This document shows positions 7,490 to 43,691 of a stretch of DNA of 64,000 nucleotides, piece by piece. Made by a program: the position numbers and the translations under genes. The stretch comes from Adlercreutzia sp. ZJ473 (GTDB taxonomy: Bacteria; Actinomycetota; Coriobacteriia; Coriobacteriales; Eggerthellaceae). Location of the stretch: assembly GCF_013185065.1 (NCBI RefSeq), contig NZ_JAAVTO010000001.1, forward strand, positions 1 to 64,000, given 5' to 3'. Each line of letters starts with the position of its first letter. Position 1 is the first letter of the stretch. The notes under the pieces are model-generated. The model was not told the DNA's origin and made no database searches. It saw nothing but the letters and a program-made list of their open reading frames with translations.

Positions 7490-8518
7490 CTACAGGCGGT
7501 CGGCGAGCTCCTTCACCAGGCTCTCGGTCTTGTCCCAGCCCAGGCACGGGTCGGTGATCGACTTGCCGAACACGCCGCCGTCGACGGGCTGGTTGCCGTC
7601 CTCCAGGTACGACTCCACCATGAAGCCCTTCACCAGGCCGCGGATGGCCTCGTTGCGGCGGCACGAGTCGAGCACCTCCTTGCAGATGCGGAACTGCTCG
7701 AACGGCCGCTTGCCCGAGTTGTCGTGGTTGCAGTCCACGATCACGGCGGGGTTGCGGTACTTCTCGGACGTGTACGTCTCGGTGAGGCGCTCGAGGTGCT
7801 CGTAGTGGAAGTTGGGGTACGTGCGCCCGTCGAGCCCGATGTAGCCGCGCAGCACCGCGTGCGCGAACGGGTTGCCCGGCGTGGACACCTCCCAGTTGCG
7901 GTAGATGAACTCCTGCGGAGCCTGCGCCGCGTAGATGGAGTTCAGCATCACCGACGTGGAGCCGGCCGTGGGGTTCTTCATGCCCGTCGGCACCGAGAGG
8001 CCCGAGGCCACCAGGCGGTGCTCCTGGTTCTCGACCGAGCGCGCGCCCACGGCCACGTAGGACAGCAGGTCGAGCAGGTACTGGTAGTGCGCCGGGTAGA
8101 GCATCTCGTCGGCGGTGAACATCCCCGTGCCCTCGATCACGTGCAGGTGCATGCTGCGGATGGCCTTCACGCCTTCGAGCAGGTCAGAGGGTGCCTCGGG
8201 GTCGGGGTTGTGGAGGAGGCCCTTGTAGCCGGTGCCCTTGGTGCGCGGCTTGTTGGTGTAGACGCGCGGGATGATGATGATCTTGTCGTCGACCTCCTCG
8301 GCGAGCTTCGCCAGGCGCGTCATGTACGCGAGGACGGAGTCCTCGCGGTCGGCCGAGCACGGGCCGATCACCAGCAGCTTGCGCGCGTCCTCGCCTGAGA
8401 GCACGCGTGCCACCTGCGCGTCGAAGAGCTCCTTCTTCTTCGTGAGCTCAGCCGACAGCGGCATCTCCTCGCGGATGTCCTTGGGGATGGGCAGGCGGCG
8501 CTTGAAGTTCATTGCCAT
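7490..8518 (-). CDS. aroF: 3-deoxy-7-phosphoheptulonate synthase (DAHP synthase, class I)
   Basis: First enzyme of the shikimate pathway, condensing phosphoenolpyruvate and erythrose 4-phosphate. The 342-residue protein matches the AroF/G/H class: LLVIGPCSADRED (PEP site), IPRVYTNKPRTKGTGYKG, GARSVENQEHR, KNPTAGS, DCNHDNSGK and the C-terminal GKSITDPCLGW. Which feedback amino acid controls it cannot be told here. It lies 27 bp downstream of a chorismate mutase gene on the same strand, giving an aromatic amino acid operon. The specific paralogue letter is a convention. Confidence 0.93.
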   Translation of the reverse strand: MAMNFKRRLPIPKDIREEMPLSAELTKKKELFDAQVARVLSGEDARKLLVIGPCSADREDSVLAYMTRLAKLAEEVDDKIIIIPRVYTNKPRTKGTGYKGLLHNPDPEAPSDLLEGVKAIRSMHLHVIEGTGMFTADEMLYPAHYQYLLDLLSYVAVGARSVENQEHRLVASGLSVPTGMKNPTAGSTSVMLNSIYAAQAPQEFIYRNWEVSTPGNPFAHAVLRGYIGLDGRTYPNFHYEHLERLTETYTSEKYRNPAVIVDCNHDNSGKRPFEQFRICKEVLDSCRRNEAIRGLVKGFMVESYLEDGNQPVDGGVFGKSITDPCLGWDKTESLVKELADRL

Positions 8519-8545: not shown

Positions 8546-8827
8546 CTACGCGCTCGGCGTCTCCTTCATAACCTTCAGAAGCGTCTCGTAGATCTCGCGC
8601 AGCCCCTGGTCGTACAGGGGGCCTTCGCTGTAGGCGCTGATGCGCTCGAAGATCTCGCCCTCGCGCGCGGGGTCGTAGAGCTTCATGCCGAGGGTCGGCT
8701 TGAGCTCGCGGATGGCCAGGGAGTGGCCGGCGCGCTCGTTGATGAGCGCCACCAGCTGCCGGTCGATCACGTCGATCGCGGCGCGGTGCGCCTCGAGTTC
8801 CATGCGTGCGTGGCTCGTGTCAGGCAT
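8546..8827 (-). CDS. aroQ: Chorismate mutase, AroQ type
   Basis: All-helical AroQ chorismate mutase (93 residues) converting chorismate to prephenate. Family residues are visible: R-x-x-I-D-x-I-D-R-Q-L-V-A-L-I-N-E-R near the start and the following helices with LYDPAREGEIFERI. ATG 8827 (MPDTSHAR) is preceded by AAGGAAGG, a strong ribosome site. Its promoter, leader and first 21 codons are duplicated almost exactly at 10482-10654; this copy keeps the intact gene. It is the first gene of a two-gene unit with the DAHP synthase. Confidence 0.88.
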   Translation of the reverse strand: MPDTSHARMELEAHRAAIDVIDRQLVALINERAGHSLAIRELKPTLGMKLYDPAREGEIFERISAYSEGPLYDQGLREIYETLLKVMKETPSA

Positions 8828-8939
8828 GGTTCGTTCCTTCCTTGGGTTCAAGCGGTAACGAGAAACGGCCCCCGCCAGGCGAGGGCCACTCGTGTGGTGC
8901 CATGATAGCAAAAGGCTTGTCCGGGGCGGCGAACTTCTT
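8765..8939 (-). repeat. Direct repeat, copy 1: aroQ promoter, leader and first codons
   Basis: About 175 bp that recur in the same orientation at 10482-10654 with only a few changes (for example CCCCC versus CCCC at 8870 and CACTCG versus CGCTCG). It contains an extended -10 TGCTATCAT at about 8900-8908, a GC-rich hairpin (GGCCC...GGGCC), the AAGGAAGG ribosome site and the first 21 codons of aroQ. The repeat ends exactly where the coding frames of the two downstream genes diverge. The duplication is seen; its mechanism is inference. Confidence 0.92.
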
Positions 8940-8966
8940 TGGTTAGAGCGCCACGACGTTTCTGGA

Positions 8967-9338
8967 TCACCAGAAGAAGATGGCGTTGATCGTGAAGTAC
9001 AAGATGAGCAACACGACGATCCCAATGGCGATGCCCACGATGGCAATCCACCATCTGATCCATTTCTTTGCTCGCCCTACATCGTTGTAGATCGAGTTCA
9101 GCTGAACAGCATCTAAGTTCTTTTCGCGCACGTCTTGGACGTCGAGGTCGTGTACCAACTCGTCAAGGCTCAGGCCGTAGTAGTCGCTCAGCAGAACAAG
9201 GCGTTGGAAATCCGGATAGGATTGCGCCAGCTCCCACTTGGAGATCGTCTGTCTTGACACCCCGAGCTCGTTTCCTAACTCCTCTTGGGAAAGGTGCTTT
9301 GATTTTCTCAGCTCGATGAGCTTTTCGTTGAAGTTCAT
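8967..9338 (-). CDS. XRE-family transcriptional regulator with C-terminal membrane helix
   Basis: The N-terminal 60 residues form a Cro/cI helix-turn-helix: LIELRKSKHLSQEELGNELG, then VSRQTISKWE, then YPDFQRLVLLSDYYGLSLDEL. The C-terminus has one hydrophobic segment (WWIAIVGIAIGIVVLLIL), so the repressor is probably membrane-anchored, a layout common in Firmicutes and Coriobacteria. ATG 9338 is preceded by AAGGAGGAAG, an excellent ribosome site. The gene is less GC-rich than its neighbours and lies between the two copies of the aroQ 5' repeat. Target genes are unknown. Confidence 0.87.
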   Translation of the reverse strand: MNFNEKLIELRKSKHLSQEELGNELGVSRQTISKWELAQSYPDFQRLVLLSDYYGLSLDELVHDLDVQDVREKNLDAVQLNSIYNDVGRAKKWIRWWIAIVGIAIGIVVLLILYFTINAIFFW

Positions 9339-9690
9339 TTCTTCCTCCTTATGCGGTTGAGCAATGTGTGCAACGTTGCGGCTCAAATGTATCGAGCGAT
9401 GGGGAGGGCAATCAACCAACAATGGTTTGCGATATGTCAACTCAGAACGGCATCTCAGCAAGAACAGGATCCTTCATCGTTAGATTCTGCCATCATAGAG
9501 GTTGGTGAGAAGAGGTTGCGAAACTACAGGGCGAACCTCAGGCATCTTTAAGGCAAGATGGCAAGCTGGGACAAAGTGTGCAAGTGAAATGACAGCTTCG
9601 GAACCATTCGAGTTAAATAGGTGCAGAACCATGTCGCTCAACAGCCATTTCTTTTTAACAGCCTTTTTGACCCGACTGTTAGAAAGAGTG
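9339..9690. other. Lower-GC intergenic stretch without a convincing gene
   Basis: This stretch is visibly more A+T-rich than the rest of the window. Open frames exist on both strands, but none has codon use like the local genes, a ribosome site or recognisable motifs. It probably holds the xre promoter at its left end and decayed DNA to the right. Confidence 0.5.
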
Positions 9691-9817
9691 TCAGATGGCC
9701 TTGTAGGCGCGCTCCTTGCGGCCGCCAGTCTTCTCGAGCAACCCTTCATCGACCATTGCATTAAGCAGCCTTCTCGCCGCGTAGTCCTTTTCGTTAAGCA
9801 GTTTGACAGCGGCGGCT
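9691..9817 (-). pseudogene. Remnant of a winged-helix C-terminal domain
   Basis: Read on the minus strand, about 40 codons end at TGA (9691-9693) with NEKDYAARRLLNAMVDEG followed by LLEKTGGRKERAYK. This resembles the C-terminal winged-helix domain of Fic-like or AlbA_2/RecG-like ATP-binding proteins. An in-frame TAA lies directly upstream and no start or ribosome site is seen, so it is a decayed fragment. The family call is tentative. Confidence 0.5.
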
Positions 9818-9941
9818 GATTAGGCGCTAGGGTTCCGATTGCCATGAATGCCCCGTATTGCTTGATTCAGGACATTGGAAGACACTAGCGGACGATAATC
9901 CCGCAATTTAGGACAATGTCCGCAAATGTCCGGAATCGCCC

Positions 9942-10544
9942 CTACTGGTCTGTCTCGGGTGGCAAAAGATAGCGCCGGCTTCTCGTCGTGCCCGTGGCGA
10001 CGACTCTTCCCTCGGCCACCAGCGCGGAGATGTGGCGCCTCACTGTTCTCCCCGTCACATCGGCGATGGCCGCCACACCGGGCACCGTCGCGTACCCGTA
10101 GTCCCTCATCATCTGGAAGATGACTTCGTCCACGCTAAAGGACGTGCCCATGGCAGATGCGGCGCCTTTGAGGATGGGGATGGATGCCTCGAAGACGTCC
10201 CCCTCGGTCAGCATCGGCTGCGCCCCGCCATACGCCCAGGAGTACTTGAAAAGGTTGCGCGTGCCGCTGCCAAGCGTGTCGGCGCGCCCGATGTTGGCGA
10301 AGAAGTCGGCGATTATGGGGTTCTTGGGCAGTGGGTTGAACCGGTCGGGCGTGAGCGGGCCGATGAAGCGCGGCCTGCTGGCGTTCTCCGTGCGGATGCC
10401 GTCGACGTCTATGACCATCTTCGCCGGGAAGGGGCTCGTGTACTCGCGGTGGATGAGCGTGTTGGCGATGAGCTCGCGGCAGATCACGTCGATCGCGGCG
10501 CGGTGCGCCTCGAGTTCCATGCGTGCGTGGCTCGTGTCAGGCAT
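9942..10544 (-). CDS. Chimeric ORF: AroQ N-terminus fused to C-terminal part of an AlbA_2/RecG-like ATP-binding protein
   Basis: The first 21 codons (MPDTSHARMELEAHRAAIDV, then I) are those of chorismate mutase. The frame then switches without a break to RELIANTLIHREYTSP, IDVDGIRTENASRP, NPIIADFFANIGRADTLGSG and a C-terminal winged helix (VAAIADVTGRTVRRHISALV). That part matches the GHKL-like C-terminal half of AlbA_2-domain transcriptional regulators or RecG-like proteins; the N-terminal AlbA_2 domain is missing. The AroQ ribosome site and leader are duplicated with it, so it could be transcribed. It is most likely a by-product of rearrangement; function is doubtful. Confidence 0.7.
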   Translation of the reverse strand: MPDTSHARMELEAHRAAIDVICRELIANTLIHREYTSPFPAKMVIDVDGIRTENASRPRFIGPLTPDRFNPLPKNPIIADFFANIGRADTLGSGTRNLFKYSWAYGGAQPMLTEGDVFEASIPILKGAASAMGTSFSVDEVIFQMMRDYGYATVPGVAAIADVTGRTVRRHISALVAEGRVVATGTTRSRRYLLPPETDQ

Positions 10545-10654
10545 GGTTCGTTCCTTCCTTGGGTTCAAGCGGTAACGAGAAACGGCCCCGCCAGGCGAGG
10601 GCCGCTCGTGTGGTGCCATGATGGCAAAAGGCTCTCGCGGGGCGGCGAACTTCT
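10482..10654 (-). repeat. Direct repeat, copy 2: aroQ promoter, leader and first codons
   Basis: Near-identical to 8765-8939 in the same orientation. In this copy the -10 reads CATCAT instead of TATCAT. The GC-rich segment at its outer edge forms a complete hairpin with bases beyond the repeat (GCGGGGCG...CGCCCCGC), whereas copy 1 lacks the left arm. This suggests that copy 2 keeps the ancestral upstream flank while copy 1 keeps the intact gene. Confidence 0.9.
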
Positions 10655-10814
10655 TCGCCCCGCCTCGCGGTTTTCCGCTTGCGGCCGGCTGTGAATGCTA
10701 TCACCTCATGTTTCTAAGCTGCCGTTGTTTCTGTCGGGTGATTACAAGCGATAAGCCGTAGCGAGAGCGCGATGAGGCCCACCTGGCGCGGCTCCATGGA
10801 GCACAGGAGATGCT

Positions 10815-11818: not shown

Positions 11819-12676
11819 ATGGAATACGCGACTCTGCCCAATGGCCTGAAGATGCCCCTTGAGGGATTCGGGGTCTTCCAAATCCCCGATCTGAAGGAAT
11901 GCGAGGACAGCGTCTACGCTGCGATCAAGAACGGTTATCGGCTCATCGACACCGCCTCCGCCTACGCCAACGAAGAGGCGGTGGGCGCTGCGGTCAAGCG
12001 AGCCGTCGAGGACGGCATCTGCACTCGCGATGAGCTCTTCGTCACCACGAAGCTCTGGATCCAAGATTACCCGGATGCTGAGGCTGCCTTCGAATCGTCT
12101 CTGAAGAAGCTCGGCATGGATTACGTCGACCTCTATCTCCTGCACCAGCCCATAGGCGACTACTACGCAGCCTGGCGCTCGCTTGAGGAGATCTACCGGT
12201 CGGGCAAGGCGAAGGCCATCGGCGTCTGCAACTTCTACTCCGAGCGCATCACCGACCTGTGCCTTCACGTGGACATCAAGCCCATGGTCAACCAGGTGGA
12301 ATGCCATCCGTTCTTCCAGCAGAGCGAAGCTCTGAAGGTAGCGGAAGAATTCGGGTACACGCTAGAGGCTTGGGGCCCGCTTGCGGAAGGAAGCCACGGC
12401 ATCTTCACCCATTCGGCGCTTACCGCCATAGGGGAGAAGCATGGGAAGACGGCGGCCCAGGTGGCGCTTCGCTTCAACGTTCAGCGCGGGATAGTCGTCA
12501 TCCCCAAGTCCGTTCATGAGGAGCGCATCGAGGAGAACTTCGACATCTGGGACTTCGAGCTCACCGACGAGGACATGGAGGCCATCGAAGCCCTCGACCT
12601 CGGTCATAGCGAGATCATCGACCACAACGACCCCGCCACCGCCAAGTTCCTGAGCTCTTTCAGCATCCACGACTAG
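11819..12676 (+). CDS. Aldo/keto reductase
   Basis: NADPH-dependent (beta/alpha)8 oxidoreductase reducing aldehydes or ketones (2,5-diketo-gluconate reductase-like). Catalytic tetrad is visible: Asp and Tyr in DTASAYANE, Lys in TTKLW and His in YLLHQP. The cofactor motif IPKSVHEERIEENF is near residue 235. I place the start at ATG 11819 (MEYATLPNG); AAGGAG ends six bases upstream, whereas ATG 11813 is too close to it. The physiological substrate is unknown. It is divergent from a LysR gene and followed 35 bp later by a cupin gene. Confidence 0.9.
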   Translation: MEYATLPNGLKMPLEGFGVFQIPDLKECEDSVYAAIKNGYRLIDTASAYANEEAVGAAVKRAVEDGICTRDELFVTTKLWIQDYPDAEAAFESSLKKLGMDYVDLYLLHQPIGDYYAAWRSLEEIYRSGKAKAIGVCNFYSERITDLCLHVDIKPMVNQVECHPFFQQSEALKVAEEFGYTLEAWGPLAEGSHGIFTHSALTAIGEKHGKTAAQVALRFNVQRGIVVIPKSVHEERIEENFDIWDFELTDEDMEAIEALDLGHSEIIDHNDPATAKFLSSFSIHD

Positions 12677-16379: not shown

Positions 16380-16524
16380 AGCGAACACCCCCTCGGGATG
16401 GAGCGGATCGGCTTCGCGCAAAGCGCAACCTCATTGTGCTCTGTTTTGCGCAGGAAGCAATCCAGGCAGGCATGTTCCGCACAAAGCACAACCGGGGGAC
16501 GGAGGTCCTCCATGGAAGTTGAGC

Positions 16525-16725
16525 ATGAAACCGACCCAGTTGACCGACCCAGTGCCGACCCAGTTGACCGATCCAGTTGCAAGGCTGTGTGTCGTCCTGA
16601 CGGGCGGGCCTCTCAGCATAAGCAAGGCGATGGGGCTTCTCGGTCTTTCGCAGAAGCGCAATTTCCGAGAAAGGCATCTGAACCCGGCGCTTGAGTTGAA
16701 TTGCATCGAGCGAACGATGCATGTC
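16525..16725 (+). pseudogene. Remnant of a Fic/AlbA_2-type C-terminal winged helix, with tandem duplication
   Basis: Forward frame reads PTQLTDPVPTQLTDPVARLC, then ISKAMGLLGLSQKRNFRERH and LNPALELNCIERTM. This matches the common C-terminal ending of Fic and AlbA_2 proteins (TDPVxxLL..., LGLxxRxxFRxxYLxPALExGxIExT). The QLTDPV segment is duplicated (GACCCAGTTGACCGA occurs twice at about 16528-16575), there is no start or ribosome site, and the frame is lost before the usual PDKPxSxxQKY end. It is a decayed fragment. The remainder of 16380-16831 holds nothing else I recognise. Confidence 0.6.
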
Positions 16726-41400: not shown

Positions 41401-43691
41401 CTACTGTGACCGATACGGATAGGGTTCCCTTGCGAGATGACTACATCTTCGATACGAACGCTAAAAACGTGCTTTCCGGCAATATCGCCGGCGATGGCTC
41501 CCTTGTGCTTAAGGTCTACTTCAAAAAGCAGTTCACGGTAACCTATCTGCCTGGAGACCTCGCTAAGCCTGGCTCCAAACAGCAGGTCACTTCGGGCCTC
41601 GACTACGGCGCTCAAACCCCGGCCGCTCCGGCCTACAAGGGTCAGCCCGGCTACACCTTCACGGGCTGGAGCCCCGAGGTCGCCGGCACCGTCACCGGCT
41701 CGGTCACCTACACCGCCCAGTGGACCCAGGACGTCTACGCCGTCACCTACACCGACGGCGTCGAGGGCGAGGAGGTCTTCGCCGACCAGAAGCACGAGAG
41801 CCTGACCTACGGCACCGCCACCCCCGCGTTCGACGGCGCGGGCGACGCCACCGCCCCGGCGCGCGCCGGCTACACCTTCACGGGCTGGAGCCCCGAGGTC
41901 GCCGGCACCGTCACCGGCTCGGTCACCTACACCGCCCAGTGGACCCAGGACGTCTACGCCGTCACCTACACCGACGGCGTCGAGGGCGAGGAGGTCTTCG
42001 CCGACCAGAAGCACGAGAGCCTGACCTACGGCACCGCCACCCCCGCGTTCGACGGCGCGGGCGACGCCACCGCCCCGGCGCGCGCCGGCTACACCTTCAC
42101 GGGCTGGAGCCCCGAGGTCGCCGGCACCGTCACCGGCTCGGTCACCTACACCGCCCAGTGGATGACGAATCCCAATGCTAGGTATGAAGTGCAGCATTAC
42201 CGTCAAGATGTTGTCGGTGATGGTTACTCCCTGTTCGAGATGCTGGAGGGTACGGGTTCTGCAGGCGCTGAGGTTACAGCGGCGCCGAAGAATTACAAGG
42301 GCTTTACGCATGTGATGACTGGCGATTCGGTTGAGTCCGGCGTCATCGCTGGCGATGGCTCACTTGTCCTTAGGCTGTACTACGACCGCGATCTCTACGC
42401 GGTGAATGGGGTTATCGACAACGACGGTTCGGTCGAAGGCAACAACCAAGAGGCACGCTATCAGGCATCTTCCGAGTCCATGACCTTTACGGCTGCGAGT
42501 GGGTATCGCATCGTCTCGATCGCCGTCAACGGCGAACCTCAGAGCGTCGCACCCGGCACGACCTCCTACACATTCGGGCCCATCCCCAGCGTTGACAGAG
42601 ACTATATGGTTAACGTTAAGACGGCCGCTCTCGGCTCAATTGTCGCGATTGCTCCTAGCGGGCAGAAGACCTATGATGGCGCACCGCTTATCCCAGGTGC
42701 CGCCGTCTTCGAGGGGCTGCCGGCGGGATATACGGCCGAGGCTGTTATCTCGGGTGAGCAGACTAATGCAGGCAGTTCCGCAAGCACGCTGTCGAACGTC
42801 GTGGTCCGCGATGCCGACGGCAACGACGTGACGGGGAACTTTGCCATTGAAGTCAAGGACGGTACGTTGGTCGTTGACCCTGCTCCCGCCATCATCACGG
42901 TCGACAGCTCTTCCAAGCAAGTCGGCACGGCTGATCCAGCGTTTGCAGGCTCGGTTGCCGGCCTAATGAGCCAGGGCGATCTGGGCGTCGTCACCTACTA
43001 CCGCATTGGCGACGAAGAGGCTGTGGGTTCGTATCCCGACGTGCTTGTGGCCAGCTATGCAAGTAATCCGAACTACACGGTGGAAATCGTTCCCGGCACC
43101 TTCACCATCACCGAAGAGCCTGTTTCTGAAGAGCCCGCGCCCGATACGCCCGGCGGCACGACCCCCGAAGGCCCCACGCCGGGCAGCCCCGGCGGCACAA
43201 CTCCCGGTGGCGCCGCTCCGGGTGGCACTACGCCGGCTCCGGGCGGCACGACTCCCGGCAGCATCATTCCGGTGATTCCGGCACCGCCGACGCCGGCGCA
43301 AATCCCTGGCACGGTGCCTGATGGGGCCGCCGCCCCCGTCATCACGCCTCTCGTCGACGCGCTCGAGGGCGCGGCCGAGATCGTCATCGGCGAGGACGCC
43401 ACGCCGCTCGCCGACATCGGCGACGAGGCCACCCCGCTGGCCGAGCGCCACGTGAGCTGCTGGGTGCACCTCTACATCATTCTCGGCATCATCGTCACGC
43501 TCGTCTACGCGGCATGCGTGGCGGCTCGCCGCGCGCTGTTCTCGCACCGCCTCAAGAAGTACGAGGACGACATCGCGGGCGACGACGGCTCGCCTTCGAG
43601 GGAGCCTGCCCATGAGGGCTTCGGGCTCGGCCCGGTCCCGATGGCTCCGCGGGGCGCGACGGCGACGGCGTTCGCGAGCCAGAGCGAATAG
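38439..43691 (+). CDS. Large surface protein with Listeria-Bacteroides repeats and MBG domain
   Basis: A 1750-residue secreted, membrane-anchored protein. A signal peptide is near the start (KVLSVLLSVALVLSVTNVFA). A 230-residue Asp/Glu/Ala-rich low-complexity segment follows (about 39090-39740). Then come InlB B-type Listeria-Bacteroides repeats (YDPNGG...GYTFLGWS...VTLYAIW), an exact tandem duplication of 73 residues (nucleotides 41722-42159), and MBG-like sequence (YDGAPLIPGA...NAGSS). A Pro/Gly/Thr linker, one transmembrane helix (YIILGIIVTLVYAACVA) and a cytoplasmic tail end it. No LPxTG sortase motif is seen. It is probably an adhesin. ATG 38313 is an alternative start adding 42 residues before the signal peptide; I prefer ATG 38439. 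Confidence 0.85.
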   Translation: MFERLVDAKGTFEGKVLSVLLSVALVLSVTNVFAFAEAGGVVSKDAKTEQADPTTSADKSKGTAASESATSGDTKESAGEKKAAPSASSTAAVAHDPHAVLPTPPLVEANLDEAVVTFDLENAYVEVKGQKLAGTKKIQMKIEKSKDLTFRANANAGYKIASIKAKNSATENVPISTQGDVSAIAADHVNSTLVVVVKVEADEAAEAAPASDTTPITNETDIKAEGKAGEPEAGTEGEAGAEAGKEAATGGEPEAVTASEGESEIPEASEASEASEPSDAVKAPEVETPEASESEGSESPENESVEPAENPAEPQGASAGAGENDATDADGQADADGKDANGKEDAVDGEDADDVEAAADEVADDAEPADKASADEATDDNDKAASDGKPADDEAAGKDEAAADDEVVDKVEAADNGKAAADDDKAAADDEVVTVHADVSSPAFEGYAYVGDVIVKVTAGEGILPEGTAVEAVAVERQDVIDAVSDKVEAQGKELQDAVAIDVTLLDKDGNTIQPDGAVNVCFFNASVEGEEVGVYRVSDDAAKVETIGTRQATSDVQSFDVDHFTDYVIAGLSLFSAEASQSVKQGTIRFDPNSEMGATGTAFTREFSDGKYTLPGIASTDFVNEGHTFVGWSTNKAGNGSNYTPQQIAVEDGQTYYAIWLSNNPSPNQAVRAEYFIRIDGEMPYEPDAASHSKYFPSGGCGHGILWSSGTGRVKSDIAINNNLAAVEANIGVGPTNDDITAAVNDWNAKNPGNQVTFDPAKQKVTWYVIKKLDDYYLGPHYNVDGIIQNLSSHTVTYDPNGGDSRVPERSTYTEGSTVNVNFNMIPSRSGYTFLGWSDSATASEPQYKSGETTSFMMPNADVTLYAIWKAQNVVLTYDGNGGATEQGNNAYTETHEVATTFELKANEFKRAGYSFEGWAISPQGGVKYTDKASYTMHAANTTLYAVWKPNGDTPYKVEYYYMNDNGTYSTVADSSVERSDTTDTKATVTDTDRVPLRDDYIFDTNAKNVLSGNIAGDGSLVLKVYFKKQFTVTYLPGDLAKPGSKQQVTSGLDYGAQTPAAPAYKGQPGYTFTGWSPEVAGTVTGSVTYTAQWTQDVYAVTYTDGVEGEEVFADQKHESLTYGTATPAFDGAGDATAPARAGYTFTGWSPEVAGTVTGSVTYTAQWTQDVYAVTYTDGVEGEEVFADQKHESLTYGTATPAFDGAGDATAPARAGYTFTGWSPEVAGTVTGSVTYTAQWMTNPNARYEVQHYRQDVVGDGYSLFEMLEGTGSAGAEVTAAPKNYKGFTHVMTGDSVESGVIAGDGSLVLRLYYDRDLYAVNGVIDNDGSVEGNNQEARYQASSESMTFTAASGYRIVSIAVNGEPQSVAPGTTSYTFGPIPSVDRDYMVNVKTAALGSIVAIAPSGQKTYDGAPLIPGAAVFEGLPAGYTAEAVISGEQTNAGSSASTLSNVVVRDADGNDVTGNFAIEVKDGTLVVDPAPAIITVDSSSKQVGTADPAFAGSVAGLMSQGDLGVVTYYRIGDEEAVGSYPDVLVASYASNPNYTVEIVPGTFTITEEPVSEEPAPDTPGGTTPEGPTPGSPGGTTPGGAAPGGTTPAPGGTTPGSIIPVIPAPPTPAQIPGTVPDGAAAPVITPLVDALEGAAEIVIGEDATPLADIGDEATPLAERHVSCWVHLYIILGIIVTLVYAACVAARRALFSHRLKKYEDDIAGDDGSPSREPAHEGFGLGPVPMAPRGATATAFASQSE
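41649..42159 (+). repeat. 219-bp tandem repeat in the surface-protein gene
   Basis: Two successive 219-bp units (41722-41940 and 41941-42159) appear identical at nucleotide level, and the 73 bp before them repeat the last third of the unit. Each encodes 73 residues ending GYTFTGWSPEVAGTVTGSV. Exact identity indicates recent duplication and likely length variation between strains. Confidence 0.92.

Follow-up and report, generated by a model that had tools for sequence, protein, structure and literature searches.

A duplicated aroQ promoter and gene start around a segment of gene debris in Adlercreutzia sp. ZJ473, possibly left by homologous recombination with one illegitimate joint

How could the promoter and first codons of a housekeeping gene come to stand twice on a chromosome, on both sides of a segment of gene debris, while the gene itself is intact? 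This question is raised by the aroQ locus of Adlercreutzia sp. ZJ473, which lies in a window of 64,000 nucleotides (the whole stretch of DNA analysed) from a draft genome of 119 contigs. Self-BLAST of the first 20 kb of the window returned a single strong direct repeat (96.6% identity, E 3.5e-79), the inner and outer copies of which are here called R1 and R2 (Table 1), in agreement with the original prediction that the aroQ promoter and 5' codons are duplicated. Each copy of about 175 bp comprises the aroQ promoter, leader, ribosome site and 21 codons, as the start of aroQ at position 8827 on the minus strand places 63 nt of the gene within the repeat. The two copies are separated by 1,542 bp of gene debris, and the order on the minus strand is LysR, R2, a fusion of the aroQ start with an SLFN_AlbA_2 fragment, a winged-helix remnant, xre, R1, aroQ and aroF.

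Table 1. Features of the aroQ locus (window coordinates)
Feature	Coordinates	Strand	Remarks
aroF, 3-deoxy-7-phosphoheptulonate synthase, downstream of aroQ	7490..8518	-	ORF; name from reading of the sequence and an earlier label
Intact aroQ, chorismate mutase type II, 93 aa	8546..8827	-	Pfam CM_2 E 2.6e-18; 96% identical to AroQ of ZJ176
R1, inner copy: promoter, leader, RBS and codons 1-21 of intact aroQ	8765..8939	-	Hairpin cut at 8939
J1, 27 nt from R1 to the xre stop codon	8940..8966	.	Boundary at 8939/8940
xre-type HTH regulator with C-terminal hydrophobic segment	8967..9338	-	Pfam HTH_3 E 7e-16
Winged-helix C-terminal remnant, frame-broken	~9690..9830	-	Translation contains stops
Fusion ORF, in frame: AroQ codons 1-21 and C-terminal part of an SLFN_AlbA_2-type ATP-binding/winged-helix protein	9942..10544	-	
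J2, 10-bp microhomology CGACGTGATC	10482..10491	-	In aroQ (R1) and a relative of the parent gene
R2, outer copy: aroQ promoter, leader and codons 1-21	10482..10655	-	
Intact upstream hairpin and ancestral flank	10636..10691	-	Common to ZJ176

The two copies of the aroQ start and an empty site in a relative

R1 and R2 differ at seven columns, all upstream of the gene, and are identical over about 108 bp of gene-proximal sequence and sequence inside the gene. R2-specific differences were found at three upstream columns, including the first base of a putative -10 element (TATCAT to CATCAT), and R1 is unlike R2 in a four-base block near the upstream hairpin. This GC-rich hairpin (about 10636-10668) is whole in R2 alone and truncated in R1, and the intact gene follows the inner copy, both as originally predicted. 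The predicted folding energy was -26.4 kcal/mol for the hairpin of R2 vs -11.6 kcal/mol for the truncated version of R1, neither being much past that of shuffled sequences. A scan of the locus with Rfam gave no match, a promoter and terminator scan returned no sigma-70-like site at the thresholds of the tool and no relevant terminator, and PADLOC gave weak partial matches only. A separate leader hairpin (CGAG...CTCG round a GGCCC stem, window 8850-8900) is kept at aroQ of both close relatives introduced below, the leader of the MAG (L092) folding far better than shuffled sequences (z -4.1). The predicted fold could represent a regulatory leader of aroQ; when a regulon was sought with the exact pattern of the leader, the sole match was aroQ of the same MAG.

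Among the genomes compared, the two nearest to the window are those of Adlercreutzia sp. ZJ176 and of a MAG, Eggerthellaceae S26M_St_58 (S26M). In ZJ176 the region of the repeat is present in a single copy that continues into the upstream flank of R2. R1, aroQ and aroF, which comes after aroQ in ZJ176 as well, align to ZJ176 as far as position 8939 (97.6%). The alignment of R2 covers the same ZJ176 DNA as that of R1 and continues to position 10691, about 36 bp of flank beyond the repeat. Judged from these alignments, ZJ176 is an empty site for the 1.5-kb insert, of the kind that the original prediction proposed to seek in related strains, and this supports the reading as an insertion; the single copy in ZJ176 also differs from what an old paralogy, with highly divergent copies in all relatives, would have left. 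As both outer flanks match the single ZJ176 locus, no native DNA appears to be missing. Compared with ZJ176, R1 and R2 have eight substitutions and one gap in common, all located between a point just before the RBS and the codons, and because the eight substitutions are common to both copies, the duplication probably took place after the split from ZJ176. R2 would be the copy under less constraint, and gene conversion could blur any such reading of age or constraint. When a signature of recombination was sought in synonymous divergence from ZJ176, aroF and aroQ did not stand clearly apart from other genes: the value was 0.062 for aroF and 0.075, near it, for pcrA, and aroQ, where 1 synonymous change fell on 64.5 sites, offers too little sequence for a distinction. 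The gene uppP, the value of which looked misaligned, was left out of this comparison.

The flanks also bear on a tandem duplication followed by loss, which the original prediction had put forward as an alternative. A duplication by way of the 10-bp match at J2 and two subsequent independent deletions would explain the direct orientation in which aroQ and an upstream gene meet at J2, as expected at the joint of a duplication. However, the same upstream flank would then be expected for both copies, whereas past 8939 R1 leads into the xre region and past 10655 R2 continues with the DNA seen in ZJ176. Because the flank of R2, with the hairpin and about 36 bp as in ZJ176, is unlike that of R1, and two additional deletions are needed, this history is not parsimonious and we regard it as distinctly unlikely. 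A misassembly might be suspected from the run of about 108 identical bp in a draft assembly. It is very improbable, as the copies differ at seven columns, both outer flanks have their counterpart at a single ZJ176 locus, the exact run is presumably below common read lengths, and analogous structures exist in two other assemblies.

Contents and joints of the insert

The insert proved to be composed of pieces that have separate relatives, each in other genera. The xre regulator of the original prediction is borne out by its Pfam match, and its homologues with 72-75% DNA identity were found in three other genera of the family (G094, G019 and G023). In the last of these genomes the homologue sits among ORFs called by reading as relaxase-like and tyrosine-recombinase-like (L053 1880-6957), a neighbourhood which suggests that the xre piece was derived from a mobile element. 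For the winged-helix remnant, a C-terminal piece is indeed present, part of which matches another genome (G203) with 76% DNA identity; it is frame-broken and all its Pfam matches were below threshold, so that this element of the prediction stands in part. The predicted ATP-binding-protein fragment is present as well and can now be described as the C-terminal part of an SLFN_AlbA_2-type protein, the reading frame of which continues that of the aroQ start. An intact gene of this type, encoding 480 aa, was found in the single-contig genome of another genus (G162); over 679 bp, its DNA and that of the insert have 89% identity. With respect to this gene the fragment has a dN/dS of about 0.15, a value that may reflect no more than the parent gene.

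In the alignment of the insert with the G162 gene, the first bases are precisely CGACGTGATC, a run of ten that also occurs in aroQ codons 18-21. The original prediction had placed the insertion in codon 21, and the joint does fall at codons 18-21; it is a 10-bp microhomology with a foreign gene, not a specific target. At the other joint, J1, no homologue reaching beyond the xre stop codon was found, from which a parent sequence might be read. When used as DNA query, the insert gave no match in the two genus relatives, only itself in its own genome, with no second copy, and no match in a collection of 72,556 plasmids, and neither junction sequence was found in viral contigs. No integrase or transposase was recognised among the ORFs of the insert (the xre, winged-helix and SLFN_AlbA_2 pieces), no gene for replication or mobilisation was recognised within its 1.5 kb, and a repeat scan detected no inverted-repeat pair at the ends. 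A transposon with target-site duplication was considered and rejected, given a repeat of 175 bp and the absence of a terminal inverted-repeat pair and of a transposase.

Two further histories can be weighed on these contents. In a one-step illegitimate insertion, by template switching or at a staggered break, the incoming piece would have been joined at J1 and J2 with overlapping ends and 175 bp of target copied on both sides. The match of both outer flanks to ZJ176, with no native loss, and the microhomology at J2 agree with such an event, which would, however, require two illegitimate joints at once and finds no internal template in the genome; we consider it unlikely. In a Campbell-type integration, a circular molecule bearing the aroQ start would have entered by a single crossover in the repeat, the expected product of which is exactly an insert between two repeat copies. 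Such a circle would have needed to acquire J1 as well as J2 beforehand, and the insert has neither a recognised replication, mobilisation or integrase gene nor a counterpart among the plasmids searched, so that integration of this type is decidedly improbable.

Repeats upstream of aroQ in sister species

The two relatives have direct repeats of their own upstream of aroQ. In ZJ176, 44 bp (-203..-160 from the aroQ ATG) recur in direct orientation at -1551..-1508 with 93% identity (L110), just after a Mem_trans transporter gene, and enclose about 1.3 kb of cargo with a RhuM/Fic-type gene. In S26M, a 234-bp direct repeat of -278..-48 (85%) has its second copy about 10.4-10.7 kb upstream (L091 11413-11636) and encloses about 10 kb; the outer copy adjoins a DUF4143 ATPase gene and starts with what looks like the 3' end of the gene that precedes aroQ, which is torD-like as judged by reading. 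Another, less similar copy (69%) was noticed in S26M near -9.6 kb (L091 about 12483-12570), upstream of an NrfD-type gene, and may be an old scar or the leader of that gene. As further observations in the window, a Fic-like C-terminal fragment at 16453-16719 is common to ZJ176 in the same aroQ-pcrA interval, and a perfect tandem repeat with 219-bp spacing lies at 41647-42162.

With respect to the ATG, the repeat boundaries are -112..+63 in the window, -278..-48 in S26M and -203..-160 in ZJ176, and have no common core. These boundaries bear on the idea of a site-specific integrative element directed at the 5' end of aroQ and supplying a replacement start. The full promoter and start retained by the intact aroQ and the presence of insertions here in all three genus members would be expected of such an element. 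As the boundaries differ in the three species, without a common att core, and no integrase or recombinase gene was recognised in the insert, both points argue against it and its involvement is extremely improbable.

A scan of 37 aroQ loci outside the genus, drawn from the same family and order and with 0.3-19.6 kb of upstream DNA per locus, found no direct repeat upstream of aroQ. The contrast with the three loci of the genus is suggestive and does not amount to a formal test, the genus cases having been found by looking here. A scan for direct repeats of at least 40 bp and at least 80% identity within 20 kb, run on 435 kb of contig sequence from ZJ473, ZJ176 and S26M, returned the three pairs upstream of aroQ, four other dispersed pairs, three of which touch or sit near a contig end, and a few tandem repeats. 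Such direct repeats are rare elsewhere in these contigs of the three genomes. The best reading is that the interval upstream of aroQ is a hotspot of gene turnover in the genus (n = 3 genomes). A stronger version, in which the interval is a dedicated accretion site where a recombinase-free process adds cassettes and each time duplicates part of the aroQ control region, is quite improbable. If it were true, successive copies of promoter and leader would form an ordered record of gene gains, and the degenerate third leader-like copy of S26M, upstream of the NrfD-type gene, would be an older layer.

A candidate mechanism and its known counterparts

The history that we favour, at somewhat better than even chances, combines such a hotspot with homologous recombination in aroQ-aroF and an illegitimate joint upstream, the process known as homology-facilitated illegitimate recombination (HFIR), with the start of the recipient aroQ left as a scar. 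In the order of events that we infer, the incoming DNA would have come from a close relative and carried xre, winged-helix debris and the SLFN_AlbA_2-type gene upstream of its own aroQ. On the anchor side, ordinary homologous recombination would have taken place within aroQ-aroF, and on the other side codons 18-21 of the recipient aroQ would have been joined illegitimately to the incoming gene at CGACGTGATC. Because this joint fell inside aroQ, the recipient start would have been kept while the donor start was brought in. The promoter and first 21 codons of the resident copy would thus have been left behind as the relic R2, which caps the truncated gene in frame, and the intact aroQ would now run from R1, brought by the new DNA. 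The original suggestion that the incoming DNA supplied a replacement promoter and 5' end fits this model, the crossover itself being presumed. A donor of the same species fits the eight substitutions from ZJ176 that R1 and R2 have in common; no strain of the donor type, with xre, J1, R1 and aroQ and without R2, was found among the genomes compared. Under HFIR, a microhomology joint would be expected at one end and an intact conserved gene at the other, and this mixture is seen here. Two features of an HFIR product are present at the locus, namely a short microhomology at the illegitimate joint and foreign DNA that the relatives lack at this position. To our knowledge, competence is not known for the host organism, and we know of no case of natural transformation in the Eggerthellaceae.

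It is established that naturally transformable bacteria undergo HFIR, with an anchor of homologous sequence and short joints (PMC6382021), and hosts named in works cited there and in PMC5361080 include Acinetobacter, Pseudomonas stutzeri and Streptococcus pneumoniae. The aroQ locus resembles these cases in having foreign DNA beside a conserved anchor, a short microhomology at one joint and no recombinase, and differs in that a natural event is reconstructed from sequence and in that the duplication includes part of the anchor gene. Sequential displacement is described for T6SS and Rhs loci, with immunity-gene arrays of Vibrio cholerae as the example, and the authors propose HFIR as the origin of the scars (PMC5361080). 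There too a new module lies beside a conserved anchor and the displaced resident remnant is kept as a scar, although that remnant is an immunity gene, while at aroQ it consists of a housekeeping promoter with 21 codons. Horizontal-transfer hotspots that lack mobile elements, for which a double homologous crossover was proposed (PMC5635113), similarly have variable genes beside conserved ones and no recognisable integrase, whereas at aroQ one side is illegitimate; small variable segments have been described as arising in the main by illegitimate recombination (PMC2884548).

A target gene also keeps a replacement start in the case of SXT/R391-type elements, which integrate into the 5' end of prfC. 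These elements have a defined att site and an integrase, neither of which was found at aroQ. A literature search on recombination in Adlercreutzia found nothing relevant.

The process is of a known kind, and its recurrence at one housekeeping locus in three of three genus members is the notable part. The locus documents, base by base, how genes that lack integration machinery of their own may be taken into a chromosome next to a conserved gene and leave that gene intact. With three different scars in three sister species and none in 37 other loci, it would provide a natural test of HFIR in gut Actinobacteria.
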